Assembly: GCF_011405515.1 (NCBI RefSeq) | Contig: NZ_AP022671.1 | Coordinates: 992,001 to 1,056,000, forward strand | From: Nitrospira sp. KM1 | Lineage (GTDB): Bacteria; Nitrospirota; Nitrospiria; Nitrospirales; Nitrospiraceae | Direction of reading: 5' to 3' | DNA length: 64,000 nucleotides | Shown here: positions 30,225-52,243 of the stretch, in pieces | Numbering within the stretch: the first letter of the stretch is position 1 | Layout: each line of letters opens with the position of its first letter | Program-made: the position numbers and the translations under genes | Notes under the pieces: model-generated | The model's database searches: none | Told to the model about the DNA's origin: nothing | What the model saw: the letters and a program-made list of their open reading frames with translations, nothing else

Positions 30225-30268
30225 CACGGAGGGGTGACGGAGCGGCCGAACGTGCCGGTCTTGAAAAC
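30225..30268 (+). repeat. attL: 44-bp direct repeat, 5' half of a tRNA-Ser gene
   Basis: These 44 bp match 55842-55885 with one difference (C at 30243, T at 55860). From 30228 the repeat is the 5' half of a tRNA-Ser gene, up to the anticodon loop (GGTCTTGAAAAC). The sequence then diverges, and the 3' half of the tRNA is absent. This is the left attachment site of the element. Confidence 0.88.
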
Positions 30269-30965: not shown

Positions 30966-31005
30966 TTGACAGATCCACGAAAGCATGTGACATTATGTCA
31001 CATGC
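30966..31005 (+). promoter_or_regulatory. Promoter and palindromic operator of the SOS cassette
   Basis: A perfect -35 box TTGACA (30966-30971) is followed after 19 bp by a -10-like CATTAT (30991-30996). A perfect inverted repeat, arms GCATGTGACA and TGTCACATGC with a 3-bp spacer, covers 30983-31005, so it spans the -10 box and the ATG at 31002. Transcription would begin at or next to this ATG, giving a leaderless mRNA. Binding by the encoded repressor would block the promoter. Confidence 0.65.
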
Positions 31006-31544
31006 GGCCTGGATCGTTACGGGAAGCCCGAAAGACCCTTGGGATGACTCAGGAGACCCTCGCGCAGACTCTGCACTGCACCCGCCGATCGATCATCCGC
31101 TATGAAGATGGCACTGTTCCGATTCCCATGGCGGTGGAATTAGCCCTCATGCAGCTCAGCTCCGCCCAGATTCCGCTAGCGGGAGTGGTTGCGGCTGGGG
31201 CACCCATTGAACCGATTCCTCAGATGGAACGCGTCGAGGTGCCGAAAAGCATGGTCGGTCGTGGCGAGACCTTCGCCCTTCGTGTGAAAGGCACGTCCAT
31301 GCAGAATGAGGGCATCTTTCCAGGTGACATTGTCGTGGTGCAGAAACACTCGTCTGCCAGCAATGGCCAGACCGTGATCGCTTTGGTAAACGGCGAGGCC
31401 ACGATCAAGACGTACCTCCGTAAGGCCGGTACAGTAGAACTCCATCCCGCCAATGACGCCATGCAGCCGATTATCATCAAGCCCTCGGACAGTTTCCAGA
31501 TCGAAGGCATTGTCGTCGGCGTCATCCGTCACCTCCGAAAGTGA
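31002..31544 (+). CDS. LexA-like repressor-peptidase (XRE helix-turn-helix plus S24 domain)
   Basis: 180 residues from the ATG at 31002; the frame is open further upstream but that part overlaps the operator. The N-terminal HTH is XRE-like (GMTQETLAQTLHCTRRSIIRYE). The C-terminal S24 domain has a self-cleavage A65-G66 site (VVAAGAP), the nucleophile S99 (KGTSMQNEG) and the base K136 (GEATIKTY). LexA-type proteins cleave themselves when RecA filaments form on damaged DNA. Unlike true LexA, the HTH is XRE-type, as in phage repressors. It heads the cassette and probably represses it. Confidence 0.87.
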   Translation: MRPGSLREARKTLGMTQETLAQTLHCTRRSIIRYEDGTVPIPMAVELALMQLSSAQIPLAGVVAAGAPIEPIPQMERVEVPKSMVGRGETFALRVKGTSMQNEGIFPGDIVVVQKHSSASNGQTVIALVNGEATIKTYLRKAGTVELHPANDAMQPIIIKPSDSFQIEGIVVGVIRHLRK

Positions 31545-31563
31545 GGCTCAGGCCGTTGGCACC

Positions 31564-32748
31564 ATGGATCGCCAGATTGTCTGCTTTGGGATTCCTGCCT
31601 TTGAAGTCGCCGTTGCTCGGCTTCACAGTCCCAGCCTCTCGACTCGACCACTGGCCATCGCTCCGTTAAATACCTCCCGGGCCTGCCTACGTGAAGTCTC
31701 ATCCGAAGCGGAACAGGCAGGCCTTGGGATTGGCATGTCCGTCGAGCAGGCCCGACGGGTCTGTCCCTCCCTGCACGTCCTCTCCCCGGATCCCTCTCGC
31801 GTCCGTACGGCGGAGGAGTGTTTGCTTCAGGTCGTGAGACGCTACGCTCCGGTCTGGGAACCGGTTCAACCTGGTTTCTTCGTGATGGATCTGACCGGGA
31901 CCGGACGACTCTTCGGACCAGCCTCTGATGTCGCGGCGAAGGTCCAGCATGAGGTGCTCGCTCAGTATCGACTTGATGGGGTCGCCGGTGTTGGGAGCAA
32001 CAAGCTGGTGGCTCAGACTGCAGCGACGTTGATTCAGCCGTCAGAACTGTATGATGTCCGCCCAGGGTCGGAGCCGGTGTTCATGGCACCGCTGTCGGTA
32101 CGCACCCTGCCAGGTCTGCAGCGGCCCTGCATGCGGCAAGTCTTGTCACGGCTCGATGATTTGAACCTCGACCGGCTCGGCGATGTCGCGGAGAGCCCGG
32201 TTGATGCGCTGGAAGTCGCATTAGGAGACTACGCCGGGCAGCTCTCTCGCTGGGCCCAAGGGATTGATTCATTGCCGGTGCTGCCACCGGCGAGTCAGCC
32301 TCATCTCGAAGAGATGGTCTTATTGGACCCGGATGAGATCGATGATTACGTGCTGACTGGCCGATTGCTCGACACGCTGCAACGGCTCTGCCGAATGCTG
32401 CGGAGTCAGCGCCGCGTCTGTGGCCGTCTGTCCCTCACGATCCGCTACCGCGATCACCTTGAAGTGACCAAACAAGAGCGCGTCACGCCCGAGACCTGCT
32501 GGGAATGTGATCTGTCCCCCGTGGTGCGGTCGCTCTTTCAGAAATGCATGCGTCGGCGCATTCGACTCCGTGCCATGACGCTCAGCATGGCCGGCTTGAC
32601 TGGATTTGCCCAGCAAGGCGTGCTGTTTGATGCCCGGCCTGTCGAGGAACAGCGTCGGCAGGAGCGGGCTAAGAAGCTCTCCGTCGCGCTCGATCAGCTC
32701 CATGCTCGATTCGGTGAGCAGGCCATTCGGTATGGGAGGAGTGATTGA
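31564..32748 (+). CDS. ImuB-like Y-family polymerase homologue, probably catalytically inactive
   Basis: 394 residues. The Y-family fold is seen in MSVEQARRVCPSLHVL and GVGSNKLVAQTAA. The first catalytic block, normally D-x-D, reads CFGIPAFEVAV, and the second, normally DEA, reads FFVMDLTGTGRLFG. Both lack the catalytic acids, as known for ImuB, which links DnaE2 and the clamp. The DnaE2-type gene follows without a gap, which strengthens the ImuB reading. The known imuA is absent; the S24 repressor gene is in its place. Confidence 0.85.
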   Translation: MDRQIVCFGIPAFEVAVARLHSPSLSTRPLAIAPLNTSRACLREVSSEAEQAGLGIGMSVEQARRVCPSLHVLSPDPSRVRTAEECLLQVVRRYAPVWEPVQPGFFVMDLTGTGRLFGPASDVAAKVQHEVLAQYRLDGVAGVGSNKLVAQTAATLIQPSELYDVRPGSEPVFMAPLSVRTLPGLQRPCMRQVLSRLDDLNLDRLGDVAESPVDALEVALGDYAGQLSRWAQGIDSLPVLPPASQPHLEEMVLLDPDEIDDYVLTGRLLDTLQRLCRMLRSQRRVCGRLSLTIRYRDHLEVTKQERVTPETCWECDLSPVVRSLFQKCMRRRIRLRAMTLSMAGLTGFAQQGVLFDARPVEEQRRQERAKKLSVALDQLHARFGEQAIRYGRSD

Positions 32749-35700
32749 GTGGCCTTCGTCCACCTGCATACACATTCGTCCTTTTCGCCGATGTGGGGTA
32801 TCCCGACAGTGAAGACCCTCTGTCAGGCAGCTCAATCACAGGGACAGGACTATCTCGCCCTCACAGATACCAATGGGCTGTATGGCGCGATCCGTTTTCT
32901 GGAGGTCGCCCGTGAGCATGGACTGAAGCCGATCATCGGTACGGAACTCGTCTCCGATCAGCACCGGGCCGTGTTGCTCGCGAAGAATGTCACGGGGTAC
33001 GGCAATCTTTGCCGGATTCTCTCCGCTCGCCACTGCGATGCGTCCTTTGAGTTCATCGAGACCGTGACGCGGCATCGCACGGGACTGGTGTTGCTGTCCG
33101 ATGATCCTGTCGCCCTGACTGCCTGGCTGGCGGAGTCGGAAGAGGATCTCTATGTCGAGTTGACCCCGGGTCTCGCCTTATCAGACATGGTCGCGTTGAG
33201 CCGGAGACAACGACTGCCGCCGGTAGCCACCACCCGCGCCGCGTTCCTGCACCCAGCCGACTATGAGGCCCATCGGTTGCTACGAGCGATCGCTGAAAAC
33301 ACGACCCTCTCACGACTCAAGCCGGGGCACTGTGCGCTCCCCTCTCACTGGCTCATGCCTGAACGTGTGCTCGCTGGACATCTGCCCCACGTGCCAGTAG
33401 CTGTCGCCAACTCACGGAGCATTGCTGAGCAGTGCTACACCGAGTGGGACTTCAAACAGACCATCTTTCCCTCCTTCCGTCAGCTCTCCTCGGACGCCGC
33501 CTTTGAAACCCTGCGCCGCAAGACCTATGACGGCGCCATCTGGCGATATGGTGCCTTGTCTCCCGTCGTCCGAGAGCGCATCGAAAAGGAACTCACCGTG
33601 ATCTGTGACAAGGGCTATGCCGACTACTTTCTCGTGGTGGATGAAATTGTCCGTCAAGCGCCACGAACCTGTGGTCGAGGATCTGCTGCCGCGTCGATCG
33701 TGTCCTATTGTCTCGGGATTACCCATGTGGATCCGATTCGACATCATTTGATGTTTGAACGATTTCTCAATCCCGGGCGTGACGATCCGCCAGACATCGA
33801 CATTGATTTCCCATGGGACGAGCGACCAAAGATTCTCGACTGGGTGTTTGCCCACTATGGACACCAACACGCGGCCATGGTCGCCAATCAGAACACCCTC
33901 GCCTCTCGGGCCGCCTTGCGTGAGATTGCGAAGGTGTATGGCCTGCCCGCCGGTGAGATTGGCAAGGCGCTGAATTTTCTCCAGCGGCGAGCGGACTTCG
34001 TCGATGTGCGACCAGGGACGACGGTGCAAGACTGGGCGCGGGACGTCTGCAGGGCCTTGAACCTGAGGAACCCTTGGCCAGAGATTCTCTATTGGTCCAC
34101 GCAATTGGACGGTCATTTCAGGAATCTGAGCCTCCATCCCGGCGGTGTCGTGTTAGTTCCGGATGAGATCCGGCGTTATGTACCGGTTGAGATCTCCGCT
34201 TCTAACTTGCCAGTGATCCAATGGGAGAAGGATCAAACCGAAGACGCGGGGCTCGTCAAAATCGATCTCTTAGGCAATCGCTCGCTCGCTGTCATCCGGG
34301 ATGCCATCGCGGCCGTCGCCCGCAACACTGGCCGGGTCATTGACTATGCGACGTGGGACCCGATCACTGATCCGGCCACCAATGACCTGATTCGGCGCGG
34401 CGAAACGATGGGCTGCTTCTATGTGGAGTCTCCCGCAACTAGACTGTTACTCAAGAAGCTCTGGGGTGGGATGCCACCAGAGCGACACGCCGTGGCCGAT
34501 GTCTTTGAATATCTCGTGGTGGTGTCGTCGCTCATACGCCCCGCTGCGAATGTGTTCGCCGATGAATTCGTGCGTCGAGCCCATGGGCAGCGCTATCAGT
34601 CACTTCATCCCTTGTTTGATGAGGTCCTCGCGGAGACGCACGGCATCATGGTTTATCAGGAAGATGTCATGAAAGTGGCGGTCGCACTAGGTGGCTTTTC
34701 CGTGGAAGACGGCGATCAGCTTCGGAAGGTGTTGAGCAAGAAGCACAAGGAACGGCAACTACGAGACTATCAATGCCAGTTCTATCAGGGAGCCATGGCC
34801 CGTGGTGTGGAGTGTCGCGTGATCGATGCGATCTGGGCCATGATCATGAGCTTCGCCGGCTATAGCTTCTGTAAGCCGCATAGTGCGAGCTATGCCCAGG
34901 TCAGTTTCAAATCAGCCTACCTGCGAGCCCACTATCCAGCGGAGTTCATCGCCGCAGTCGTGAGTAATCAAGGCGGCTACTACTCGGCCTTCGCGTACCT
35001 CTCGGAGGGACGACGGATGGGGCTGACGATCCTGCCGCCGGACATCAACGCGAGTGTGTGGGTCTATACCGGATCAGGGACCATCGTTCGAGTGGGTCTG
35101 ATGCAGATCAAAGGCGTGCAAGAAGACCTCGTCACACAGATCGTTGTGGAGCGAGAAACGAACGGTCCTTACCGATCGCTGTCAGAGTTTCTGAGTCGCG
35201 TGAAGCTCGACTACGCGCAAGCGAAATTGTTGATCAAAGCCGGATGCTTCGACTCCATCGCTGGAGAACTCACCAGACCAGCCCTTTTGTGGCGTGTCTT
35301 TGCCGCGCAAGCGGCCAAGCCACCGAGCTCCATCCCCATTCCCACGGAGTATTCAGCCCAGAAAAAACTGCAGCACGAGCTCGCCCTCTTTGGCTTTCCC
35401 TTACACTGTCACCCACTCGATCTGTTTACGGAGCTACTGGCTGCGACCACTCACATATTCGCGAAGGACTTAAATCAGTATGTCGGGAAAGAAGTGACCC
35501 TCATCGGTTGGCTTCTTACTGAGAAGATCGTCTCCACCAAGAAAGGTGAGCCGATGGAGTTTATGACTCTGGAGGATCAGACCGGGATGTATGACGCAAC
35601 GGTGTTTCCCAACACCTACCGAACCTACTGCCATCTGCTCGCGGCGAACCAAGCTTACATGCTGACAGGCCTGGTAGAAGAGCAGTTCTCAACTGTCACG

Positions 35701-35781
35701 GTCACCGTGAAAACCCTCCAACTCCTGACCACCGGTGGAATCCCGGCACCGAGTGAGTCTCTTGAGGAGCAAAGCGTGTAG
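32749..35781 (+). CDS. dnaE2: Error-prone DNA polymerase III alpha subunit, DnaE2-type
   Basis: 1010 residues from a GTG placed directly after the ImuB-like stop codon. The N-terminal PHP domain begins FVHLHTHSSFSP. The polymerase active site includes DPPDIDIDFPWDE, and CKPHSASYAQVSFKSAY is the helix-hairpin region. The C-terminal OB domain (VTLIGWLLTEKI, then FMTLEDQTGMYDATVF) is typical, and the tau-binding tail of replicative DnaE is absent. DnaE2 carries out translesion synthesis with ImuB. This second alpha subunit on a mobile element points to mutagenic tolerance of damage. Confidence 0.92.
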   Translation: MAFVHLHTHSSFSPMWGIPTVKTLCQAAQSQGQDYLALTDTNGLYGAIRFLEVAREHGLKPIIGTELVSDQHRAVLLAKNVTGYGNLCRILSARHCDASFEFIETVTRHRTGLVLLSDDPVALTAWLAESEEDLYVELTPGLALSDMVALSRRQRLPPVATTRAAFLHPADYEAHRLLRAIAENTTLSRLKPGHCALPSHWLMPERVLAGHLPHVPVAVANSRSIAEQCYTEWDFKQTIFPSFRQLSSDAAFETLRRKTYDGAIWRYGALSPVVRERIEKELTVICDKGYADYFLVVDEIVRQAPRTCGRGSAAASIVSYCLGITHVDPIRHHLMFERFLNPGRDDPPDIDIDFPWDERPKILDWVFAHYGHQHAAMVANQNTLASRAALREIAKVYGLPAGEIGKALNFLQRRADFVDVRPGTTVQDWARDVCRALNLRNPWPEILYWSTQLDGHFRNLSLHPGGVVLVPDEIRRYVPVEISASNLPVIQWEKDQTEDAGLVKIDLLGNRSLAVIRDAIAAVARNTGRVIDYATWDPITDPATNDLIRRGETMGCFYVESPATRLLLKKLWGGMPPERHAVADVFEYLVVVSSLIRPAANVFADEFVRRAHGQRYQSLHPLFDEVLAETHGIMVYQEDVMKVAVALGGFSVEDGDQLRKVLSKKHKERQLRDYQCQFYQGAMARGVECRVIDAIWAMIMSFAGYSFCKPHSASYAQVSFKSAYLRAHYPAEFIAAVVSNQGGYYSAFAYLSEGRRMGLTILPPDINASVWVYTGSGTIVRVGLMQIKGVQEDLVTQIVVERETNGPYRSLSEFLSRVKLDYAQAKLLIKAGCFDSIAGELTRPALLWRVFAAQAAKPPSSIPIPTEYSAQKKLQHELALFGFPLHCHPLDLFTELLAATTHIFAKDLNQYVGKEVTLIGWLLTEKIVSTKKGEPMEFMTLEDQTGMYDATVFPNTYRTYCHLLAANQAYMLTGLVEEQFSTVTVTVKTLQLLTTGGIPAPSESLEEQSV

Positions 35782-35799
35782 CCAGTACACTCTCACCCC

Positions 35800-36702
35800 A
35801 TGCTCCTCTCTCCCTTCATTCGCTTCGGGACCTCCACCTGGACCTATGAAGGCTGGCAAGGCCAGGTCTACTTGAAGAAGTATGCCAAGACGACCTTTGC
35901 GCGGGAATGCCTGGGCGAGTATTGTCAGTATCTCCACAACGGTGACCCGTGCTTTCGCACGGTCGGCAATGATTCCACGTTCTACCGTCCACCGACAGCC
36001 AACCAACTGCGACACTATCTCAATCAGATCCCCGAAGACTTTGAGATGTGCTTCAAGGTGTGGGAGGAGATCACCATTCCGACTTACGCGAAGCAGGCTC
36101 GGTATGGCACAAAGGCTGGACAACCGAATCAACGATTTCTTGATGCAAAGCTCTTCAATGATCTCGTGCTCACACCTTATCGAGAAGCCAAGTTCGAGCC
36201 ACACACCGGCCCATTCTTGTTTGAATTCCAACGGCACGGGATGTCGAGTGAGGAATTCTGCTCGCGCCTAAATACGTTTTTTGGTCAACTCCCCCAGGAC
36301 TTTCGCTATGCGGTTGAAATCCGTAACGCGGGGTTACTGGGTCAGGACTATCGCAACGTCTTGGAGAATCACGGCATCGCCCATGTCTACAATTATTGGT
36401 CCTACATGCCTTCGTTACGGGACCAGCACCAACGGATGGAAGAGCGCTTCACGGCGCCCTTCACGGTCCTGCGTCTCCTCACGCCGCTTAAGATGTCCTA
36501 TGAAGCAGCGAAGAAACGAGCGGAGCCGTATACGAAGATTGTGGAAGAGCTGCCAGAGATGCGGCGAGAGACGGTGGAACTGGTGAAACAAGTGATGGCA
36601 GAGAAGCGAACGGCCTATGTTTTGGTGAATAACCGCAGCGAAGGGAATGCTCCCCTCACAATACAAGCTCTACGGAATGCGCTCCAAGTGGCGGAGACAT
36701 GA
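35800..36702 (+). CDS. DUF72 (YecE-like) protein
   Basis: 300 residues with a TIM-barrel-type DUF72 fold: FIRFGTSTWTYEGWQG at the start, STFYRPPTANQL, PFLFEFQRHGM, EIRNAGLLGQDY and a final YVLVNNRSEGNAPLTIQAL. It lies 18 bp after the DnaE2-type gene, so it is almost certainly on the same transcript under the LexA-like repressor. The function of DUF72 is not established; some authors link the fold to nuclease- or isomerase-like activity. Its presence here suggests a role in damage response. Confidence 0.85.
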   Translation: MLLSPFIRFGTSTWTYEGWQGQVYLKKYAKTTFARECLGEYCQYLHNGDPCFRTVGNDSTFYRPPTANQLRHYLNQIPEDFEMCFKVWEEITIPTYAKQARYGTKAGQPNQRFLDAKLFNDLVLTPYREAKFEPHTGPFLFEFQRHGMSSEEFCSRLNTFFGQLPQDFRYAVEIRNAGLLGQDYRNVLENHGIAHVYNYWSYMPSLRDQHQRMEERFTAPFTVLRLLTPLKMSYEAAKKRAEPYTKIVEELPEMRRETVELVKQVMAEKRTAYVLVNNRSEGNAPLTIQALRNALQVAET

Positions 36703-36850
36703 GCTTTGCCTATTTCCATTTTTCTGCTCCCCATACCTCGCGGGCGTCTGTGATCATTGTGCATCCGATTGGGGAGCCGCACAAGGTTGAAAGGCGTCAG
36801 GGAGTGCTGGCAAGGGAAACGCCGAGGCCGGAGCTGGAGATCCCGACAAG

Positions 36851-36896: not shown

Positions 36897-37400
36897 CTAT
36901 TTCCCGACAATGTCTCCACGTAGCCCGCCGATAATTGCAAGGAGCTCACCCTTCTCAGGCTGTGGCACCTTGAACTTGTCAAGCGTGGTGACGAGGTGTG
37001 CTGCCACCTGATCAAATTGTATATCTGTGATTTTCATTCCCTGATGCGTGGCTGGCATGGCCCGCCCGATATACGTACAGGGGCCACCGGTTGCTGCACA
37101 GACCATTAACACGTTCAATTGTTTGAAGCGCGCCTGTCTGTCAGGTGGCAATCCTCCAAAGGATGACGCCAGTTTGGGATCAGCAAAGAGCCGGTTCCCA
37201 AAGTCACTGACCACAGCGGAGATGGCGTCGTACCCACCGAGGCGTTCATAGAGAGTTTTCTGACTCCCCGCTTGTGTAGATGGAGGGGAACCGGCTGTAG
37301 CAGATCGAGGACTGCCGGTTACGAACACAAGCAGACCTCCAAGTGCTGCTGATACGACGAAGACCTTACATGCTGTCCGTGCACTCGTTGTTATAGCCAT
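36897..37400 (-). CDS. Group I truncated haemoglobin, exported
   Basis: 167 residues. The first ~35 residues form a hydrophobic export signal (VFVVSAALGGLLVFV), so the protein should be periplasmic. The globin part begins LYERLGGYDAISAVV and carries the proximal histidine block ATHQGMKITDIQFDQ. Group I truncated haemoglobins bind O2 and NO and can turn over NO to nitrate. The periplasmic location suits a cell meeting NO or oxidants outside. A TGTC-N8-GACA site lies 80 bp upstream. Confidence 0.88.
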   Translation of the reverse strand: MAITTSARTACKVFVVSAALGGLLVFVTGSPRSATAGSPPSTQAGSQKTLYERLGGYDAISAVVSDFGNRLFADPKLASSFGGLPPDRQARFKQLNVLMVCAATGGPCTYIGRAMPATHQGMKITDIQFDQVAAHLVTTLDKFKVPQPEKGELLAIIGGLRGDIVGK

Positions 37401-37480
37401 GACATACCCCCTTTAGAAAAATTGATTTGGAACCTACGAAAACTACATAGGCATCTGTAGATGTTTATCGAGGAAATATC

Positions 37481-37496
37481 TGTCATGGAGATGACA
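37481..37496. promoter_or_regulatory. Inverted repeat TGTC-N8-GACA upstream of the haemoglobin gene
   Basis: TGTCATGGAGATGACA, perfect over 6-bp arms, about 80 bp upstream of the haemoglobin start. The same TGTC-N8-GACA frame appears upstream of cytochrome P460 (43231) and near 39400. A Crp/Fnr-type operator is a fair guess. Confidence 0.45.
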
Positions 37497-37867
37497 AAGC
37501 CGAATACAGAGATCATGCCGAGATTACCGACTATTCGATCAAATCCCACAGAACTCTCTGATGATGAAGCGAACGGTGTCACTCTGCCAAACCATATGAT
37601 GAGCGATTGGCTCACCCTGTGTTATGAAAATGCCAGCCTTGGATCTTCGCACACGGTGGTGTGTGGTGTATGGAGAACGATACAGCGTGAACGATCGCAA
37701 TGGCTTAGGCCTCCATTTTCAAAGCAGGTTCTAGTACCTCGGCTACTGCAATGCATAGAGTGGCCCGATTTCATCAGGCTCGTCCTTCTACAGAGGCCTG
37801 TGAAATTAGGAGACGGTCAGCCTATCGCAGGGGAAGAGGGTCAGACATAACCCATGTGAAATGAAGA

Positions 37868-38060
37868 ACCCCGCCCTTACAGGCGGGGTCTCCTTACAAT
37901 TCAAGCTACGCTTGACCCGTCTCCTGCTCGCGCTGGTGCCGTACATACGGGCGAATCGTGACTTCGCTGATGCCCATCACAGAGTTTCATCGACGGCCAT
38001 CTTTGCACCAGGCGAGCAACAGACGGCTCCTGGCTCACACCCCCACCCTCCCAGGTGGGG
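37868..38060. repeat. Two hairpins facing each other, possible IS200/IS605-type relic
   Basis: ACCCCGCC-6 nt-GGCGGGGT lies at 37868-37889 and CCCCACC-6 nt-GGTGGGG at 38041-38060. About 150 bp separates them and there is no transposase frame. Hairpins near both ends are known in IS200/IS605 elements and their non-autonomous relics. The rest of 37401-38073 has no gene I can support; the frame at 37461-37850 has no family likeness. Confidence 0.35.
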
Positions 38061-38073
38061 AACTCCCGCGTCA

Positions 38074-39141
38074 TTAGAACCGAAGCAGACTTCCGAAGGT
38101 GACGGTGTTTATTCTGGCTGCTTCTTCTTCATAACTGAGTTTCCATCGTCCGTGTAGATACCCAATCGAAAGTGCGAGCGCCTCGGTCAACTGATATCGT
38201 GCCAACACTTCCCCCTGGTAAATCTTTTCGCGCGCGCCAAGAAAGTCATCACCAGGCAAACCCGACGTGTAGTTGGTTTGCTCAAGATCAAAGCCTCCTA
38301 GCAGGGTGAGTTTATCCGTGAAACGCGCCTCCAACTCCGCTTCGACATAGTGTGTGACATAGGAGATGTCCTCTCCAATTTGTGGATTGTGTCTCCCGTC
38401 AGCCAGCCCTCGCTCGTAGTGGTATCCGACCACCAATCCGATTCCTGGCTTGATTTCCCACATGATATGTGTCCCAAGAGTCCAAAAGCGAGTATTCCGA
38501 TGCGCAAAGCTCTCGTTGTACGATCGGTCTCCGTATCGAGCTAACCCGCGAATGGTGACATTCTCGAGTAGCTTACGCTCCAGTTCTGCCGTTCCAAAGT
38601 GTGTCGTGACGTACTCACCCCCACGATCCGATGATCGTAATTCACCGGGACCGTGATTGCCCAAGAAGAGGTGCGGACCGTAGTGATACCGCATCCGGAA
38701 GATAGTCTCTCCTCCTGGAAGTGCTTGAGTCAGCTGCGCGCCATACGTGCCATGAGAAAAAGCGGCCTGGTCGGTAAAGACAAACCCTTGGGCTCGTGCC
38801 GTCAGGTCGGTTCTCCCCCAGCTCGATTGCAATGATCGCGTGAGGTGGGCAACGGGTTCAAACACCCCGCTTGAACCTTGACCGGTGGTCTGAATGACCG
38901 GTTGTGTAGGATCCTCTTGCAGTGACAATCGCTGAGACGCCGAGAACAGCGCAACGTCATCGGTATAGAACGCATTCATCTCTCCGCCAACATGCCATCC
39001 TGATTCAGACTCGACGTCCATCTTCATATCCTTCATCTCAGAGGCGTCCAAGCTCATATCAGTTTCAGCCTGGGCCTGGGAGCACAGCAGCAACAACACC
39101 AGGAACGGCCACCCACACCATCTAATTAGCTGTACTTTCAC
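38074..39141 (-). CDS. Outer-membrane beta-barrel-like protein
   Basis: About 355 residues from a GTG at 39141. A signal peptide (IRWCGWPFLVLLLLCSQAQA) is followed by an acidic segment and a long alternating pattern of aromatic/hydrophobic and polar residues, with many strands ending in Arg/Tyr. It ends in SLLRF, a C-terminal Phe typical of barrels inserted by BamA. No specific porin family is recognised. It may pass anions or oxidants, but this is a guess from its neighbours. Confidence 0.7.
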   Translation of the reverse strand: MKVQLIRWCGWPFLVLLLLCSQAQAETDMSLDASEMKDMKMDVESESGWHVGGEMNAFYTDDVALFSASQRLSLQEDPTQPVIQTTGQGSSGVFEPVAHLTRSLQSSWGRTDLTARAQGFVFTDQAAFSHGTYGAQLTQALPGGETIFRMRYHYGPHLFLGNHGPGELRSSDRGGEYVTTHFGTAELERKLLENVTIRGLARYGDRSYNESFAHRNTRFWTLGTHIMWEIKPGIGLVVGYHYERGLADGRHNPQIGEDISYVTHYVEAELEARFTDKLTLLGGFDLEQTNYTSGLPGDDFLGAREKIYQGEVLARYQLTEALALSIGYLHGRWKLSYEEEAARINTVTFGSLLRF

Positions 39142-39661
39142 GCACGCCACCAATTTGTATTGAAAGCATTCTTTAATGCCGAACCATTCGCCCCTGGATC
39201 TAGCGAGAGCCTCACACGACTGTCCGAATACACATAGCGCCTGCACTGGTATTCACTTTTTCCTCAAATCTTGTACGCAGGAGAGGCCCAACAGGGAGTT
39301 TCATCGCACGCAATACCCCCCTCGTTTACTTGTAATAGATAAATGCAAACTGGCGTTGTAGGCTTGGTTCGTACTTTATAGGGAAAGCGCACACATTTCT
39401 GTCACTTATAAGACAAGGAGTTCAAATTTCTCGTATTCACTGAGGGGAATGCCCCCGCTGAAATCAATTCGCAGCTTGGTTTCAGTGGAACAAACATGGT
39501 CTTGAGAATGCCTGACATGCAGCTGTGGGTAGGCGAGCAGTAACCCTCTTCCACCTGGGGTCGGCCTTGCAGTTCTTTGAATAGCTATGGTTGCCGAAGC
39601 CCGATGAGGGTTCGCCGCTTCTCAAGCGAAGTCTTGAGTTACGGATATCAGGAGGCCTCTT
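39142..39661. other. Intergenic region with a TGTC-N8-GACA site
   Basis: 520 bp, AT-rich, containing TGTCACTTATAAGACA at 39400-39415, about 260 bp upstream of the barrel gene. I see no gene. Confidence 0.4.
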
Positions 39662-40138
39662 TTATTTTGCGAGGCTTCTCACATAATGAACAAGCTTCCA
39701 CACTTCCTCGTCCGATAAATCCGGGAACGCCATCATCCCTGTCCCTGAAGAACCGTACTTGGTAATCCAGAACAGTTGCCCGTCAGAAATCTCGCGCATC
39801 ATCGCACTGCATGTGAAATCGCGCGCCGGCGGCATCATTCCCCCGCTGACCGGTCCTTTCCCCTCTCCCCGCTTGCCGTGGCACAGCGCGCAGGCCATCG
39901 GCTTCGCGTCGTGAAGATACAATCCTTTTCCCACCTGAAGGACGTCGCTGGAAGCAGGAAGCGGATTCGTCTTAGCTAACATGTCTTCTGGAGCATTGGC
40001 AGTTTTCCTCGGCTGAACACAGGAACTGTTTTGCCCCCCTTCGGAGTCGGCCGCTACAGCCTGCTGGGTGAATGGGATAAGCCAGAGGATCACGGCCATC
40101 GTTGCTATCACGTTCTGTTTTGTCCTCATTGAATTCAT
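39662..40138 (-). CDS. Periplasmic c-type cytochrome, single haem
   Basis: 158 residues. A signal peptide (NVIATMAVILWLIPFTQQAVAA) precedes a monohaem domain: CALCH haem-binding motif near residue 85, and a likely methionine ligand in GTGMMAFPDL followed by the typical SDEEVWKLVHYVRSL helix. Small cytochromes of this type shuttle electrons in the periplasm. Here it could serve P460, the chlorite island or a c-type oxidase. The neighbouring barrel gene is downstream in the same direction but 520 bp away. Confidence 0.88.
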   Translation of the reverse strand: MNSMRTKQNVIATMAVILWLIPFTQQAVAADSEGGQNSSCVQPRKTANAPEDMLAKTNPLPASSDVLQVGKGLYLHDAKPMACALCHGKRGEGKGPVSGGMMPPARDFTCSAMMREISDGQLFWITKYGSSGTGMMAFPDLSDEEVWKLVHYVRSLAK

Positions 40139-40405
40139 CGTGCACTCCTTTTATTACAGAAGCCTTAGTAGGCATCCTGTTGAGTCCGAGCACCTTCGAT
40201 CTGTATCAGTCGTCAGGGTGATGCTTGATCTCCGTGCGACTTTCCATTTGTGGTACTCCGGAGTTACCTCTCGATCATGATCGGCAAAGGATGCGGAGTG
40301 TGCGTTCGACGCCCACCGGCGGATGCCCGGCCCTCTCAGGCTTCGGATAGAATGGCTCGATGATTGCCGCCAGTCCCCTCACACCGAATGACATGACCTC
40401 TCTCA

Positions 40406-40915
40406 TCAAGAAACCGCTCGAGACGGTACCTTCCAATGAGGTCTTGGAAAGTGGCACGTATATCCGTGGGGATTTCGCTCGAGATAATCTTGATGTTCAG
40501 GTTCCGCCACCCAAAATGGACCTGCGGGCCGAACCTCCGTCACCACCTTGCCGGGCCAAAGGCCCGACGCATCGACATCGGCGATGACTTCCTCTGCTGT
40601 TCGGCGTTGAGTATCGGACGTGTAGTAAATTCCTGATCGATAGGACATGCCCACATCGTTGCCCTGGCGATTCAGTGTGGTCGGGTCGTGAATTTGAAAA
40701 AATACCTCCAGTAGAGTGCGGAACGCCAGCTTGTCACGGTCAAACACGACTTCAATCGCCTCTGCATGGGTACCATGACGACGATAGGTGGCGTTCGGCA
40801 CATCGCCACCGCTATAACCTACCCTGGTTGAAAGCACTCCTGGCAGCTTGCGAATGAGACCCTGCATCCCCCAGAAACACCCACCGGCCAATATGACCGT
40901 TTCTGTTTGACTCAT
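40406..40915 (-). CDS. msrA: Peptide methionine-S-sulfoxide reductase
   Basis: 169 residues from the ATG at 40915 (the frame opens 7 codons earlier). The active site is GGCFWGMQ, with [24 protein letters not shown] next, then [10 protein letters not shown]. MsrA repairs oxidised methionine with thioredoxin. It has no export signal. Its place between cytochrome c and selO in an oxidant-defence island fits repair of damage by hypochlorite, a known side product of chlorite turnover. Confidence 0.95.
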
Positions 40916-40970
40916 ATAACGCTCCTTAATCATCATCTCACAGGACGGAGAGACCGCCGCTGCGACGTTT

Positions 40971-42449
40971 TCACGTACCGCAGAATGTTTGATAGCAGGC
41001 CGTCACCTCAGCAGGAGCCGGGGTGGCGTAGGCGTCCAGTTCAGGGTCTTCATCAAACGGTCGAGTGACGGCTTTCAACAGCCGCTCGAATGGTGCAAGG
41101 TCCGTATTGTCCGTGGCGGCAGCCAACGCTTCTTCAACGCGATGATTTCGAGGAATGTACAACGGGTTCACGCGTCGCATTGCTGCAGCCCGCGCCTCCG
41201 TCTTCAAGGACTCGCGGTCGAGACGCATGCGCCACTGTCTCAACCACATTGCGAGTGCTGAAGGCTCACGAAACACCGCCTGAAGGGGACGGTCGTTACC
41301 CTCCGCTGCGTCGACGAGGTATCGCCAGGCGAGCGTGTAATCGGCGCCTCGTGCGTGGAGCAATGCCAACCATTCATTGGCCAGTACGTCGTCTCCCTCC
41401 TCCGTTGTCGCAAGGCCAAGTTTCTTCCGAATGCCTGCAAGCCAATAATCATAATAGCGAGCGGGAAACGTTTCTAAAATCTCGAGAAACGGGGCAACCT
41501 TAGACTCTCGTGAGCCATTGGTCATCACCGGAGCAATGGCTCCGGCAAGACGTGCTAAATTCCAACGTATAATGTGCGGCTGGTTGTGATAGGCATACCG
41601 ACCCTGCGTGTCGATCGAGCTAAACACCGCATGCGGGTCATATGCCTCCATAAACGCACAGGGCCCGTAATCGATGGTCTCGCCGGAGATCGTTGTGTTG
41701 TCCGTATTCATCACGCCATGGATGAAACCAACCAACATCCAGTGCGCGACAAGACTCGCCTGTCGATCAGCCACGGCCCGGAACCATTCCTGATACCGAT
41801 GAGGATGGTCGGCGAGCTGAGGATCGTGCCGTCGAATTGCATAATCCACGAGTCGTTGTACCTGGTGTGGTTCCTCACGGGCCGCGAAGAATTCAACGGT
41901 GCCGATTCGCAGATGACTGGCCGCGACGCGCGTCAATACAGCCCCCGGCAGTGGACGTTCACGAAAAACTGATTCGCCTGTCCAGACCGCGGCAAGTGCG
42001 CGTGTGGTCGGAATACCCATGGCATGCATGAATTCTCCGATGAGGTATTCCCGAAGGACCGGACCTACCGCTGCCTTTCCATCTCCACCACGAGAGAAGG
42101 GGGTTGGTCCAGACCCCTTTAAAGCCAAATCTCTGCGTAGACCATCCTTGTCTACCACCTCACCGAGGAGCAGCGCCCGGCCATCACCGAGTCGCGGTGC
42201 GAAGTGCCCGAACTGATGACCTGCGTAGACCTGGGCGATCGGTGTTGCTCCGACCAGCGTTTCGTTTCCAGAAAGGAATGCACTACCTGCTGGGCCATTC
42301 AGTATTTCTATCGGTAGACCCAGTTGAATACCTAGGTCCGTATTCAAGCGAAGAAGCTTTGGAGAGGGCACCGGAGTAGGTTGCCAGGGAACGTACATAC
42401 CTTCGAGTTCCCTGGCATAGGTATTGTCAAACTGGATAAGCGTATCCAT
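40971..42449 (-). CDS. selO: Protein adenylyltransferase SelO (YdiU family)
   Basis: About 492 residues from ATG 42449. Family blocks: [42 protein letters not shown], and [23 protein letters not shown] with pseudokinase active-site residues. The C-terminus CYQTFCGT has cysteine where animal SelO has selenocysteine. SelO transfers AMP to proteins and protects from oxidative stress in bacteria and yeast. It lies 56 bp upstream of msrA in the same direction. Confidence 0.95.
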
Positions 42450-42524
42450 CATGAAAATCTGTATGACATCGCCACCAGTCAACCTCTCCCCTCAAGGCTC
42501 ACAATGGCAGCCCTCAATCTCGGG

Positions 42525-43136
42525 CTATTGTTTTTGTAAAACCGGATAGCCCAGCGTGTAGATCCATTTGTCGGCTTCAGCTGCGTGTGCAGGGGCCAAT
42601 CCCTTAGCAGGCATGTGACAGGGGATACATTCCGCTTTATAGTTTTTCGTGACAGAGTGAGTCATGTCTTCCTTGTTGAAGAGCCCCCAGGCCCACCCGT
42701 CTCCCCACACCTTCGAATCTTTATACCGTCCCTTTGTATCACGCACGAGCACAAACCAGCCCTTGACGGTGGTAGCATGGCCGACTGCAAGCCCGGTACT
42801 CATCGCCATCGTCTCTGCGTTTAAGAGTTCCTTTACCAGTACGGCGCCGTCCGGGAACTGCCCAGTCTTTTTATAGTGGGCAATCGTTGAGGGCTGCGTA
42901 TACACCGTGTGATACTCATGAAGGCCCGGACCACTTTTCTCCAGTTTCTCATCCGCATTGGCGTGAGCCCAGGTGCCAAGTGTGGGCCAGTCTCTGTAGT
43001 TATCCGGGACGCGGAGCGCCCCCGTAGCCGTATCGACATTCGGTGCAAACGGTCCTTCTTGCTCCGCATTGGATAAGCCGGTCAGCCACAGAGCCCCACA
43101 TGCAATAGCAACAACTCCCAAAAGCATTTTCTTCAT
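42525..43136 (-). CDS. Cytochrome P460 family protein
   Basis: 203 residues. A signal peptide (MLLGVVAIACGALWLTGL) and the haem motif CIPCH near residue 178 are clear. WGDGWAWGLFNKED and the final DKWIYTLGYPVL fit the P460 fold, whose haem carries a Lys-haem cross-link in the enzyme. Family enzymes oxidise hydroxylamine or NO-derived species to nitrite or N2O. In a nitrite oxidiser it may detoxify hydroxylamine or NO. A TGTC-N8-GACA site lies 95 bp upstream. Confidence 0.88.
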   Translation of the reverse strand: MKKMLLGVVAIACGALWLTGLSNAEQEGPFAPNVDTATGALRVPDNYRDWPTLGTWAHANADEKLEKSGPGLHEYHTVYTQPSTIAHYKKTGQFPDGAVLVKELLNAETMAMSTGLAVGHATTVKGWFVLVRDTKGRYKDSKVWGDGWAWGLFNKEDMTHSVTKNYKAECIPCHMPAKGLAPAHAAEADKWIYTLGYPVLQKQ

Positions 43137-43230
43137 GATCCCTCCCTTTACCTAATGATAGTTATGATTACCCAGCACTAAGAGTATCGAAATGGTGAAA
43201 TAAGAATACACTTTGGCTCGCCAAGACTTC

Positions 43231-43246
43231 TGTCATCTAGGCGACA
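43231..43246. promoter_or_regulatory. Inverted repeat TGTC-N8-GACA upstream of cytochrome P460
   Basis: TGTCATCTAGGCGACA overlaps the stop codon of the Crp-like gene and lies 95 bp before the P460 start. It has the same frame as the site before the haemoglobin gene. Confidence 0.45.
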
Positions 43247-43796
43247 AATTCGGTAGATCCCTGGCAGGAATAGCATCAAGTGTGACGATTCGGCTGAGAG
43301 CGTCAAGGTCTCGCACACACACGTAGCCCCTCGTGTAGGAGAGAATGTCTTGGTCACGCAGGGTTTTCATAATGGCACTCACATTGGGACGGGACGCCAC
43401 GACAAGCTCAGCGAGTTCCTCATGGGTCATTCGAACGTCCACGATATAGCCGACGCCATGGTTGCAGGGCTGCCCCTCGAAGCACATCAAGTCAACGAGT
43501 GTCATTGCAACCCGCCTTTGTAACGGCGAAGTTAGTTGCCACTGCAACCGACGATCAAGGAAGTGCAGCTGGTGACCATAGGTTTCTAGAAGTCCTTGCC
43601 GCAGATTTGCATCGGCCTGAGAGGCTCTTTCAATACTCACTCGATCAAGCTCCAACACAGTGGCCGTTCCATTTGCGACTGCCGATTCTGCATTCTGAAA
43701 GATCGAAAGAACGGTTTTTGACAAGTGCTCGCTATTGCAACGGTTTCCCCAATTTAATTGTGATATCGGTAACTTAGGCCTTTCCGTTGGTTCCAC
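43233..43796 (-). CDS. Crp/Fnr-family regulator lacking most of its sensor domain
   Basis: 187 residues from a GTG at 43796; an in-frame stop lies 10 codons upstream, so it cannot be much longer. The last ~90 residues are a Crp-type winged helix (RMTHEELAELVVASRPNVSAIMKTL, and the wing YTRGYVCVRD). The N-terminus keeps only the end of a cNMP-like fold (ATVLELDRVSIE) and the dimer helix. A normal Crp/Fnr protein has about 230 residues. This may be a truncated regulator acting without ligand, or a decaying gene. It sits among haem and NO genes. Confidence 0.75.
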   Translation of the reverse strand: MEPTERPKLPISQLNWGNRCNSEHLSKTVLSIFQNAESAVANGTATVLELDRVSIERASQADANLRQGLLETYGHQLHFLDRRLQWQLTSPLQRRVAMTLVDLMCFEGQPCNHGVGYIVDVRMTHEELAELVVASRPNVSAIMKTLRDQDILSYTRGYVCVRDLDALSRIVTLDAIPARDLPNLSPR

Positions 43797-44230
43797 TGTA
43801 TTCCATCCTTTCTGTCTGTTTCAACAGAGTTTTGACACAAATTTGTCACACCTAGTCCGTACATCAATCGAATCAGGCAGTCATGTCTCCGATGAAAATA
43901 CAGTACCTGAGCCATCCTCATCAGAAGACAACGCAGCCCACAAGAAACAAAAGTAGCCCCCTCGACTCGGCATTTGAGAAATGCATCAACATGATCATTC
44001 CTCAGATCGCCCGGTGAGTAGCAATTGCCTCCCTCATCCCTCAGGAGATCCCACGCCAAGCCTGTTCTGTTTACATGCTATCGGGTTTACGGTCAGGCCA
44101 GTGCTGCCAAAATCCCTAAATGCCCGCACAGAGGGAACCCCGTGTCCCTGTACCCATGCGGGTTGCCATACCAGTGCTATGAGAACACGGTCGGGGCATG
44201 TCGCCTAGCGACGGCACCTCCCGTGCGTCC
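43797..44230. other. Intergenic region before chlorite dismutase stop
   Basis: 433 bp between the shortened Crp gene and chlorite dismutase. A Crp-like half-palindrome (TTGACACAAATTTGTCAC) lies at 43833-43849 close to the Crp start. No gene or RNA is seen. Confidence 0.4.
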
Positions 44231-45019
44231 TTACCGTGAAAAGACTTCGAGGATTTCATCCAGGGAGCGGATCGTCCCCAACAACAACGGATCACCAAAC
44301 CGCTTATTATGGCGATTCTCCTTCACCTTCAATAAGCCGATCACCAGATTGTTGAAGTCGTCCAGTTTTGCCGTCTCAAAATAGGTGATGAAGTCCAGGT
44401 CATCCAGCCCGCTGGAATGATACAGCTTGCGCTTGACGGTTTTGAGATATGCCACTGTCGCATCCGTATGCTCCTTCATCAAAGCGGCACGCGGATCGTG
44501 CGGCATCATCCACCATTCAGCATCTTTGCGGATAGGAACCACCAGGACATACGGACTGCTCGGAGGTGGAGGAGTCTTCAGTTCAGTCTTCAACTCTTCA
44601 GGAAAACTCGGGACATAATTTAACGCCTTTGTAATCCCGTTGAACGTGTCGGTGTTCTTCAACGCTTTCCCGAACGTCGTGCCCATGAAGTCGATCAGAA
44701 CATTCTGGTTGTGACTCATTTCCTTGGAGTGAATCCTCAGGAAAAAGTCAGCTTTCTCAGATAATCCTCGCAGCAAGTACGTATCGATGGTCATTTGCTC
44801 TGAATACTTCTGGAACACACTTTTTGCCTCCGCCACGGCTTTCGTCCGGGCATCGCGATCCAGTTTCCACCACTCGTCCCCAACCTTGAAGACGGCGAAG
44901 GTGGCATAGATCCCGGGTTCCTTCAATAACTTCTCCCGATCCGCTTCAGCACCAGCTATTTGCGCACAAAGCATGAAAGTCAAAACCATCACGGCGAGGA
45001 TAGATCGCTGTCGCATCAC
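44231..45019 (-). CDS. cld: Chlorite dismutase, periplasmic
   Basis: 262 residues. A signal peptide (VMVLTFMLCAQIAGAEA) is followed by the two ferredoxin-like halves of chlorite dismutase. The proximal haem ligand is H184 and the distal arginine is R197 (TVKRKL), separated by 13 residues as in Nitrospira and perchlorate reducers. W50 and W51, then W169-W170, are conserved aromatic positions. Cld turns chlorite into chloride and oxygen. The length and export signal match the long pentameric lineage known from Nitrospira. An antibiotic biosynthesis monooxygenase-like gene is just upstream. Confidence 0.96.
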   Translation of the reverse strand: MMRQRSILAVMVLTFMLCAQIAGAEADREKLLKEPGIYATFAVFKVGDEWWKLDRDARTKAVAEAKSVFQKYSEQMTIDTYLLRGLSEKADFFLRIHSKEMSHNQNVLIDFMGTTFGKALKNTDTFNGITKALNYVPSFPEELKTELKTPPPPSSPYVLVVPIRKDAEWWMMPHDPRAALMKEHTDATVAYLKTVKRKLYHSSGLDDLDFITYFETAKLDDFNNLVIGLLKVKENRHNKRFGDPLLLGTIRSLDEILEVFSR

Positions 45020-46791: not shown

Positions 46792-47775
46792 TTATCGGTC
46801 ACGATCGTTTCCTCGGTTCCGCTCCATGTCCGGAGTACGGCCTCGTCCCCCGAGATAGCGCACCAGATCCACAGCGAGCTGCCGGTCTGCTCCTTGATCA
46901 GATCGTGCGAGCGTCTTCAGAACCTGCTCGTAGTGGTGCATGACCTCCCGCTGCTTCCTCGGCATGTGGGTGACTCGTCGCTGACGATCGAGCACCTTCG
47001 CCTCGGTCGTGCGATCACGTAGATGCTGAACCTTCCACCGTTCCTGTGTCGTACGGTGAATTCGGCTTGTCGTCGTGGCCTCAATGCCATGCTCCCGTAA
47101 CGCCTCCGCAAATCCCTCCCGCCAGCGCTGCAGATCGGCCTTCCTGGCATTCAAACGAACTCCATCAAGACCTGCGGCTTTCACCGTCAAATGCACATGT
47201 GGATGTGGAGAGGGATGGGGATCCGGATCGGTCTCGAAGGTATGAAGCACCATTGCGTACTGAAACCCGGAGAACTCCCGTGTGGCGAAGTCACGGGCCG
47301 CCCGCTGCACTGATAATGGATCGGTCCTGGTCGGCATGGAGAGGACGAGGTGAAAGGCGTCGCGCATCGTCGAGTCTGCCGCGATGGGCATCCCGCCATC
47401 GCGCCATTCAGCTTTCAGATCGGCCACGGCCTCCTTCCCGACAATCACTTGGCCGCCTTGATCCTCGATCTCAAGCTGGCCATCACGCGAAATGTAGGTG
47501 AGGTTGTTCGAGATGCCCTTCATCCCCTTCGGTGCCCTAACGAGTTTCACCACGACTTGTGGCGAACGGCGAACCATGGCCTGAAGTTTCTGCCGCACAT
47601 AGGTCGCACGAGCCTGTGCCGTGCTGAGCCGTCCGCCGGTACTCACGAACTTAGCGAAACTCAGACGAACATTCCTGCTGCGACGCGGTCGCGGGAGGGT
47701 CTCCGTTGAGACATTGAAGAGCCGACTCCCCCACTCATCCAACTTCTGGTCAATTTGGCTGCCTGTTGAACTCAT
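46792..47775 (-). CDS. Relaxase (MobA/VirD2-type mobilization nuclease)
   Basis: 327 residues. The motif around KGISNNLTYISRDG has the tyrosine-containing block, and HPHVHLTVKA is the HxH metal motif of MobP-type relaxases. The C-terminus is short, with no helicase or primase domain. Relaxases nick at oriT and pilot the strand. Its start overlaps the MobC-like stop by 4 nt, so the two are co-translated. A candidate nick site lies upstream of mobC. Confidence 0.85.
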   Translation of the reverse strand: MSSTGSQIDQKLDEWGSRLFNVSTETLPRPRRSRNVRLSFAKFVSTGGRLSTAQARATYVRQKLQAMVRRSPQVVVKLVRAPKGMKGISNNLTYISRDGQLEIEDQGGQVIVGKEAVADLKAEWRDGGMPIAADSTMRDAFHLVLSMPTRTDPLSVQRAARDFATREFSGFQYAMVLHTFETDPDPHPSPHPHVHLTVKAAGLDGVRLNARKADLQRWREGFAEALREHGIEATTTSRIHRTTQERWKVQHLRDRTTEAKVLDRQRRVTHMPRKQREVMHHYEQVLKTLARSDQGADRQLAVDLVRYLGGRGRTPDMERNRGNDRDR

Positions 47776-48335
47776 TGGAGATGCCAGCGGTCCACGGACC
47801 CGCGTAAGACATCGGACACCTTCTTTGTATGGGCCTGGATCACGCGAGAGAGTTCGGTGATGACTTCAACCCGAAAGGCGGCTCGGTTCTGAGGCGCGGT
47901 ATTCAAGACTTTGGTAATCTGGTTCAGGTTCCTCCCCAAGGCGAGGAGTTGTTGATTCGACCGGGCCAAGGTCTCCAATTCCGGCTGTCCGACCTGTGGC
48001 TGCCCGGTCAACTTGGTGCGGACCATCGCCACCAGCCATTTCGTCGGCACATAGCCTTCTTGACCGGCCATCTTCTTCAGGGCGGCGAGCTCTGAGGCTG
48101 TCAGGTTCAGTTCGATGCGAGCGATCGCCCGTTCTCGCTTCGGGGTGACACGACTCCGAGGCGTAGGGGCCGGGGTGGCTCTCCGATCCATGGTCTGCCG
48201 AATGGCGTTCCGCAACGCATGGCTCGGTGTGAGTCCGTGGGCCTGACACCAGGCCTGCCAGGGCACCTTCAGTTCCCCCAAATCCACAGTCACCGTGGTC
48301 GTCCGTTTCGCCCGCTCCCCCATCAACTCACCCAT
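47772..48335 (-). CDS. MobC-like relaxosome accessory protein
   Basis: 187 residues. The mid part (ARIELNLTASELAALKKMAGQEGYVPTKWL) is a ribbon-helix-helix-type DNA-binding block and the C-terminal part has the GRNLNQI motif of the MobC/relaxosome family. It would bind near oriT and assist the relaxase. Two ATGs (48335, 48323) could serve as start. Confidence 0.8.
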   Translation of the reverse strand: MGELMGERAKRTTTVTVDLGELKVPWQAWCQAHGLTPSHALRNAIRQTMDRRATPAPTPRSRVTPKRERAIARIELNLTASELAALKKMAGQEGYVPTKWLVAMVRTKLTGQPQVGQPELETLARSNQQLLALGRNLNQITKVLNTAPQNRAAFRVEVITELSRVIQAHTKKVSDVLRGSVDRWHLQ

Positions 48336-51846: not shown

Positions 51847-51999
51847 TCGAACGTGCGTGATAAGAGGATCATGGTGATGGCTCACGCCCCGGGTGGGCAG
51901 GACATGACGCGCATCATCTCCATGAGAAAGGCAAATCGCCGTGAGCAAAAAACCTATGATCAAGAGCGACCTGAAGCGACTGGACCGCATGACGGATAA
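51847..51999 (+). pseudogene. BrnT-type toxin remnant
   Basis: The frame reads RIMVMAHAP and then TRIISMRKANRREQKTYDQE, the C-terminus of BrnT toxins, and overlaps the brnA start. The N-terminal half with the active-site residues is not found upstream: the sequence there (51634-51846) has no BrnT frame. This leaves brnA without a working partner. Confidence 0.6.
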
Positions 52000-52243
52000 G
52001 GATATCGACTACTCCGATATCCCGCCATTAGATGACGCATTTTTCAAGAAGGCCAGGATGGTCGCCTGGCCACCGGCGAAGCAACAAGTGACTGTACGTC
52101 TCGATGCGGATGTGCTCCGCTGGCTGAAGGCCTCCGGCAAGGGGTACCAGACACGGCTCAACTATATTCTCCGTGCGGCAATGGAACATCAGGGGCCGCG
52201 GCGACCGCGTGCCACAAAGCGCCGGCGCCCCCATGCGGCGTAA
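51941..52243 (+). CDS. brnA: BrnA-type antitoxin
   Basis: 100 residues from a GTG. The CopG-like part (QQVTVRLDADVLRWLKASGKGYQTRLNYILRAAM) is typical of BrnA, preceded by an acidic, proline-rich toxin-binding arm (DYSDIPPLDDAFF). BrnA neutralises BrnT and binds the operon promoter. Since BrnT is degraded here, it may only act as a DNA-binding protein. Confidence 0.85.
   Translation: MSKKPMIKSDLKRLDRMTDKDIDYSDIPPLDDAFFKKARMVAWPPAKQQVTVRLDADVLRWLKASGKGYQTRLNYILRAAMEHQGPRRPRATKRRRPHAA

Follow-up and report, generated by a model that had tools for sequence, protein, structure and literature searches.

In Nitrospira sp. KM1 (Nitrospirota; Nitrospiraceae) a stretch of 64,000 nucleotides, here called the window (contig NZ_AP022671.1 of assembly GCF_011405515.1, positions 992,001 to 1,056,000 of the forward strand), contains a 25.7-kb integrative element at window positions 30225-55887, with a mutasome operon of four genes, lexX, imuB, dnaE2 and a DUF72 gene, at its left end. 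The reading to which we give a probability of about 0.78 is that this self-regulated operon makes up the invariant left end of a probably mobilizable Nitrospiraceae element that targets tRNA-Ser(UGA), and that it is repressed separately from the host's own genes of the same kind and triggered by RecA. From the sequence we infer a self-contained, RecA-triggered cassette that would be insulated from the repressor of its host.

Pfam and NCBIfam scans find the four genes in the order just given, with corrected coordinates (Table 1), and the intergenic distances of 19, 0 and 18 bp make a single transcription unit likely. The first-pass annotation of this DNA had proposed a near-gapless operon of a repressor, an ImuB-like Y-family protein and DnaE2, led by the repressor, without imuA, with a LexA-type switch of its own and lying on a mobile element, and these proposals hold, the switch at the level of its sequence. 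It had let the repressor reach back to 30966, and that start has been moved to the ATG at 31002, the same point at which the homologues of 180-183 amino acids begin; the TTG at 30966 was rejected since it belongs to a TTGACA hexamer that recurs before nearly all homologues. An imuB open reading frame of 431 amino acids starting at 31453 was likewise discarded as an upstream extension overlapping lexX. Comparison with five homologous cassettes gives ratios of nonsynonymous to synonymous substitution rates (dN/dS) of 0.04-0.14 for all four genes, a purifying selection which argues that the operon is maintained as a whole and is not a chance array of reading frames.

The DNA-binding domain of LexX is of the XRE type (HTH_3) and not the canonical LexA winged helix, for which a profile search (PF01726) gave no match anywhere in the host genome; the two proteins of that genome that match the LexA model are both S24 proteins without a winged-helix domain. 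Alignment to LexA structures places in LexX the residues for RecA-stimulated self-cleavage, the A65-G66 site and the catalytic S99/K136 dyad, and the A-G site and the S24 catalytic residues are invariant among LexX homologues. The predicted operator, GCATGTGACAT-T-ATGTCACATGC, is perfectly palindromic, overlaps the lexX start codon and has the 15-bp core GTGACATTATGTCAC. None of 2,000 dinucleotide shuffles of the 0.94-kb region produced a perfect palindrome of this 11+1+11 form, and a 17-mer search found one exact copy of the operator core genome-wide, the next best match having 2 mismatches. Given how close the -35 hexamer, the operator and the ATG lie to each other, the mRNA of the lexX operon is probably leaderless.

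Downstream of the repressor, the catalytic acids of ImuB are lost (G, P and G replace D8, D103 and E104) and the protein carries near its C-terminus the motif QQGVLF, putatively a beta-clamp-binding-like motif and mostly of the EQxxLF type in homologues; lost acids and motif are common to nearly all ImuB copies. DnaE2 retains an intact catalytic motif, PDIDIDF, and is 32% identical to a separate DnaE of 1156 amino acids (C1:757-761 kb), and so it is present besides the replicative DnaE, as in imuABC cassettes. The operon encodes no ImuA and the NCBIfam ImuA model matches only RecA genome-wide, although control genomes too score only below its cut-off, so that a distant ImuA could escape the model. 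A standalone ImuB-C between imuB and dnaE2 is impossible here because the genes abut, and the longer gaps of basal cassettes hold no convincing reading frame. In gene content, with a repressor, an inactive Y-family protein and DnaE2 encoded together in a single operon, the set is that of the ImuA-less lexA-imuB/imuY-dnaE2 variant, a class already described (PMC6511836, PMC8072749).

In the mechanism proposed, LexX would repress its own operon by binding the palindrome that lies between -35 hexamer and start codon. DNA damage would lead to filaments of host RecA and these to LexX self-cleavage, after which a catalytically dead, clamp-binding ImuB would be made together with DnaE2 for an error-prone lesion bypass without ImuA. 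In the lexA-imuY-imuB-C-dnaE2 operon of Deinococcus deserti, induction is RecA-dependent and both ImuY and DnaE2 are required for ultraviolet (UV) mutagenesis (PMC8072749); by analogy, damage would be expected to derepress the Nitrospira operon and permit such bypass. It is conceivable, if somewhat doubtful, that the genes are kept for survival of damage through lesion tolerance and that mutations are a by-product, as the antimutator action of ImuC in Pseudomonas putida (PMC3901139) and the stress-protective cargo of the element would have it; however, DnaE2 with ImuB has been mutagenic in most systems examined (PMC3901139, PMC4151985).

A point missed at first pass is that the host already possesses such genes. 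Its complete genome of 4.51 Mb has one other S24 LexA homologue, XRE-type by sequence, and a chromosomal imuB-dnaE2 pair of which the DnaE2 is 59% identical to that of the cassette. The resident operator, GTAACCATTGGCTAC, occurs in exactly two copies in 4.5 Mb, before the resident lexA and before the chromosomal imuB, and so a small LexA-imuB-dnaE2 circuit pre-exists in this host, and what the element contributes is another copy with different wiring and not a new ability. The LexX site appears to differ from that of the resident repressor, as judged from the two motifs, and the mobile switch would then be separately wired: with different operators the cassette and the host imuB-dnaE2 would be repressed separately, though RecA could trigger both. 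Downstream of the resident LexA homologue a divergent RecA-fold protein with a weak Rad51 match is encoded (L093:6006-6803, about 160.0-160.8 kb of the genome), possibly the ImuA counterpart of the host; of 43 resident LexA loci 9 have a relative of this protein nearby, as against none of 41 cassettes.

How operator and repressor change together was followed in 83 homologues with a readable operator, in which at least six operator classes track changes of the recognition helix. The helix TRRSIIRYE goes with GTGACATTATGTCAC or GTGACCATTGGTCAC, TRQTINRYE with GTAACATTTTGTTAC, TRQTIARYE with GTAACGATTCGTTAC, TRLTITRYE with GTATCGTTACGATAC and KRLAI-RYE with GTATCCATTGGATAC, while the resident helix TRVSVARYE is found with GTAACCATTGGTTAC-like operators. 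Residue 29 follows a simple code (Arg with GTG, Gln, Val or Met with GTA, Leu with GTAT), and its Arg/Gln difference also separates the sister classes A, to which the cassette of the window belongs, and B. When 122 columns are ranked by operator association, the top 14 include five of the six variable recognition-helix residues (P 5e-5). In a maximum-likelihood tree the cassette clade (98/99) stands apart from the resident clade (98/98) and each operator class groups separately within the former; the ancestral operator is mostly kept by the residents. At resident LexA loci of genus g5 (for example L153, L164 and L183) the operator has changed once from GTAACCATTGG to GTTACCAATGG with the TRVSVARYE helix unchanged.

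These data also bear on whether the cassette repressor and the resident LexA cross-regulate, the drift of the operators being too small for insulation. Both operators share half sites of the GTnAC...GTnAC type, residents and cassettes are 58-62% identical, and basal cassettes keep the ancestral, resident-type operator; yet the operator cores differ at several positions and these covary with recognition-helix residues, which leaves cross-regulation unlikely. Improbable is a role of LexX mainly in element maintenance or excision, in which its RecA-triggered loss would launch the element and mutagenesis would be a side effect. XRE-S24 repressors do control many phages and integrative and conjugative elements, and the operon together with the integrase makes up the constant end module; however, the operator stands once in the genome, at lexX, and so before neither integrase nor relaxase, and the genes that follow it make up a translesion set.

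If the operator of the cassette is indeed private to LexX, an element entering a new cell would find no cognate repressor there, and a burst of expression on entry would be a natural prediction. A speculative and rather unlikely extension is that Nitrospiraceae cassettes form repressor "immunity groups" in the manner of temperate phages, with a private repressor and operator pair for each class, so that neither the host nor a cassette of another class would silence it; in a cell lacking its repressor it would undergo zygotic induction, with a timed entry burst of mutagenesis or lesion bypass, followed by shut-off through LexX until damage recurs. In several genomes two cassettes of different classes coexist, and a pair of intact ones from a single class was not seen in any; but drafts may collapse identical copies, and the apparent avoidance of a shared operator class is accordingly weak.

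The element itself is delimited by a direct repeat of 44 bp with one mismatch, which contains the 5' half of tRNA-Ser(UGA), and the left copy matches the tRNA-Ser of relatives at 100% over 41-44 bp. An empty site is seen in relatives, where an intact tRNA-Ser(UGA) follows closely after serS (at about 0.1 kb in G003 and within a few hundred bases at most in several); in the window serS and the intact tRNA-Ser are 25.6 kb apart and a piece of the tRNA is left beside serS. The strongest evidence that the element has moved between genera is locus L120 (genome G164, of genus g5 as against g1 for the window in a computed grouping), which is 99.5% identical to the window over at least 8,316 bp. The identity begins at 30228, inside the attachment repeat, and the DNA before the attachment site is only about 70% identical to that of the window, with a SerS protein at 75%.

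Across 175 genomes an integrase at least 94% identical to that of the element is present in eight, the window's own included, seven of which carry a class-A repressor (at least 92%), and since that repressor is found in only 10 of the 175 the co-occurrence has a hypergeometric P of about 1e-9. The integrase accompanying the cassette in the other carriers is 94-97% identical, and a tRNA-Ser remnant lies at a constant offset in 8 of 9 class-A loci. In G029 the cassette end and the integrase end with its restored tRNA-Ser enclose about 81 kb, and so the mutasome operon looks like a constant end structure around a variable middle. At L121 and L125 an integrase gene or its end stands directly before the left attachment remnant, which suggests tandem accretion of elements at one tRNA-Ser site.

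The first-pass annotation had advised a search for the gene order in other integrative elements, and the sister cassettes of class B do lie beside other integrases, at tRNA-Thr (L127, L131), tRNA-Phe (L129, L133) and tRNA-Arg (L128); carriage of the operon is thus not confined to a single kind of element. Its worry that the order is widespread as an ordinary chromosomal operon was half justified: the lexX-imuB-dnaE2 order is frequent in the Nitrospiraceae, at 42 imuB-linked loci in the sample, but the class of the window is not ordinary chromosomal. It is thus very improbable that an ordinary chromosomal SOS operon, its order a vertical heritage, here lies near an unrelated integrase, for although many genomes have the order and some copies, those of classes D and E and the basal ones, show no integrase or tRNA nearby, L120 refutes this for class A unless its contig join is an assembly artefact, and the constant remnant offset, the integrase co-occurrence and the class-B neighbours also speak against it. 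A viral origin of the cassette was considered and rejected, as no relative of the repressor was found in IMG/VR contigs, and so were close plasmid copies, the best plasmid repressor being 38% and the best plasmid DnaE2 45% identical.

Several observations tell against a mobile, separately wired cassette. The association of helix and operator is confounded with phylogeny, lineage-marker columns outside the helix-turn-helix scoring as high, so that it supports but does not prove altered binding; and that LexX and the resident LexA would not bind each other's sites we infer from sequence only. Past the tRNA, the right flank of the element lacks synteny with relatives over the stretches compared, and three genomes with a class-A lexX were unmatched to a full integrase gene, one of them having a fragment at a contig end. 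Finally no type IV secretion gene was recognised, not every small reading frame having been scanned; with a relaxase and no such gene transfer would need a helper, and from its gene content the element is probably not self-transmissible but mobilizable.

Table 1. Features of the mutasome operon and of the element that carries it (window positions)
Feature	Position	Strand	Basis or remark
Left attachment site	30225..30268	+	5' part of tRNA-Ser(UGA) remaining beside serS
TTGACA, -35 element of cassette promoter	30966..30971	+	same hexamer at same distance before nearly all homologues
Predicted operator, perfect palindrome	30983..31005	+	overlaps start codon
Operator core, 15 bp	30987-31001	+	
lexX, XRE helix-turn-helix and S24 autoprotease, LexA-like repressor, 180 amino acids	31002..31544	+	Pfam S24, HTH_3; TIGR00498 lexA over cut-off
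imuB-like, Y-family polymerase fold, 394 amino acids	31564..32748	+	IMS/IMS_C domains
dnaE2/imuC, error-prone-type DNA polymerase III alpha homologue	32749..35781	+	PHP, NTPase, finger, HHH and OB domains
DUF72 protein, TIM-barrel type, final gene of operon	35800..36702	+	Pfam; fold match to DUF72 structures
Terminator-like hairpin, weak, operon end	36690..36710	+	1 found against 0.8 expected by chance
Cargo: globin, porin, cytochrome c, MsrA, SelO, cytochrome P460, Crp-type helix-turn-helix, chlorite dismutase	36897..45019	-	
MobA/VirD2-type relaxase	46792..47775	-	
NikA-like mobilisation protein	47772..48335	-	weak match under Pfam cut-off
Tyrosine integrase	54609..55967	+	Pfam Phage_integrase; 3' end runs into right tRNA copy
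Right attachment site	55844..55887	+	with following bases restores complete tRNA-Ser(UGA), 55845-55934

The cargo block is one of redox, oxychlorine and nitrogen-oxide stress genes. A link of the mutasome to bundled defence cargo had been supposed, and is not supported: PADLOC on the scanned proteins gave only weak helix-turn-helix matches and no system, and the recognisable cargo consists of these stress genes and a BrnA-type antitoxin gene (51941-52243), for which a BrnT partner was not identified. In a study of drinking water imuAB-dnaE2 was enriched in disinfected systems, in Alphaproteobacteria (PMC7085177).

Of the 42 imuB-linked loci, 21 have DUF72 as their last gene, with some of the contigs ending too early to tell. 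In L127, L123 and L130 dnaE2 and DUF72 are separated by unrelated genes; examples, named by eye, are an alpha/beta-hydrolase-like reading frame, a MarR-like regulator and a secreted-protein pair. A PDB sequence search with the DUF72 protein gave no match, and its AlphaFold model, of modest quality (pLDDT 64), best matches DUF72 structures (Z 16), with sugar epimerases and UV-damage or apurinic/apyrimidinic endonucleases among the lower-scoring matches, tied with many TIM barrels. In a docking study one DUF72 protein was proposed to act in the manner of endonuclease IV (PMC3828134); a lesion-binding role or a replacement for ImuA are to be taken as leads only.

Cassettes that are lexA-first, ImuA-less or plasmid-borne are each known separately (PMC3901139, PMC8072749, PMC6511836, PMC4151985). 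Close in content is the Deinococcus cassette, likewise with a LexA homologue first, an inactive Y-family protein, DnaE2 and no ImuA, and some Deinococcus species carry two cassettes (PMC8072749); in contrast to it the Nitrospira operon has no standalone ImuB-C, ends in DUF72, uses an XRE-type helix-turn-helix and sits on a tRNA-targeting element. The lexA2-imuA-imuB-imuC operon of P. putida also puts its repressor first, with two LexA proteins of different regulons in one cell, but it has ImuA, is chromosomal, was judged not recently acquired and has a single LexA2 class (PMC3901139). Mobility is shared with plasmid imuABC cassettes such as that on pRalta of Cupriavidus taiwanensis, a symbiotic plasmid on which such a cassette gives transient hypermutation in a new host and faster adaptation; however, that locus (imuA2-imuB2-imuC2) has ImuA and no repressor gene, and is under LexA control via a host-type LexA box (PMC4151985).

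As to the repressor, XRE-type S24 SOS regulators are known in Streptococcaceae and Bacteroidetes, and the non-canonical LexA proteins of the HdiR, UmuDAb and Bacteroidetes kind similarly join an XRE-type or other non-LexA DNA-binding domain to an S24 autoprotease and have a small SOS-like regulon, HdiR of Streptococcus uberis controlling only a mutagenic cassette (PMC8565304). The targets of these proteins are UmuC/Pol V or a broad SOS network, whereas here they are imuB-dnaE2 and the repressor is inside the mobile operon. The MOBQ plasmid Do28_1 of Desulfosarcina ovata has the same four kinds of gene in a row (lexA-DUF72-imuB-dnaE2), is mobilizable and lacks ImuA, but differs in gene order and in having a canonical winged-helix LexA, its ImuB being 29% and its DnaE2 45% identical and its DUF72 marginally similar; with so different a DUF72 and a canonical LexA, DUF72 may have joined ImuA-less cassettes twice. 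A Candidatus Manganitrophus plasmid (L202, CP114558.1), also from the Nitrospirota, has a winged-helix lexA and genes for RecA-like, ImuB-like and DnaE2 proteins in a row. In the papers searched, a partial coverage of the literature, no comparable Nitrospira cassette is described, nor is the combination that seems new here, in which a cassette lacking ImuA has an XRE-S24 repressor, sits on tRNA-targeting elements and shows a series of cassette-specific operators distinct from that of the resident.

Inducible mutagenesis is usually seen as a trait of the host SOS network, and here it would be a self-contained switch with its own operator that moves horizontally and has been added to a host already having one. 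With a repressor of its own, the cassette would be expected to be expressed on entry and not to depend on how the SOS response of the host is tuned. For the question of how S24 repressors change their specificity, the paired operators and recognition helices offer a natural data set. Nitrospira have a key part in nitrification during water treatment, and the element that carries this switch also carries genes for oxychlorine and redox stress.

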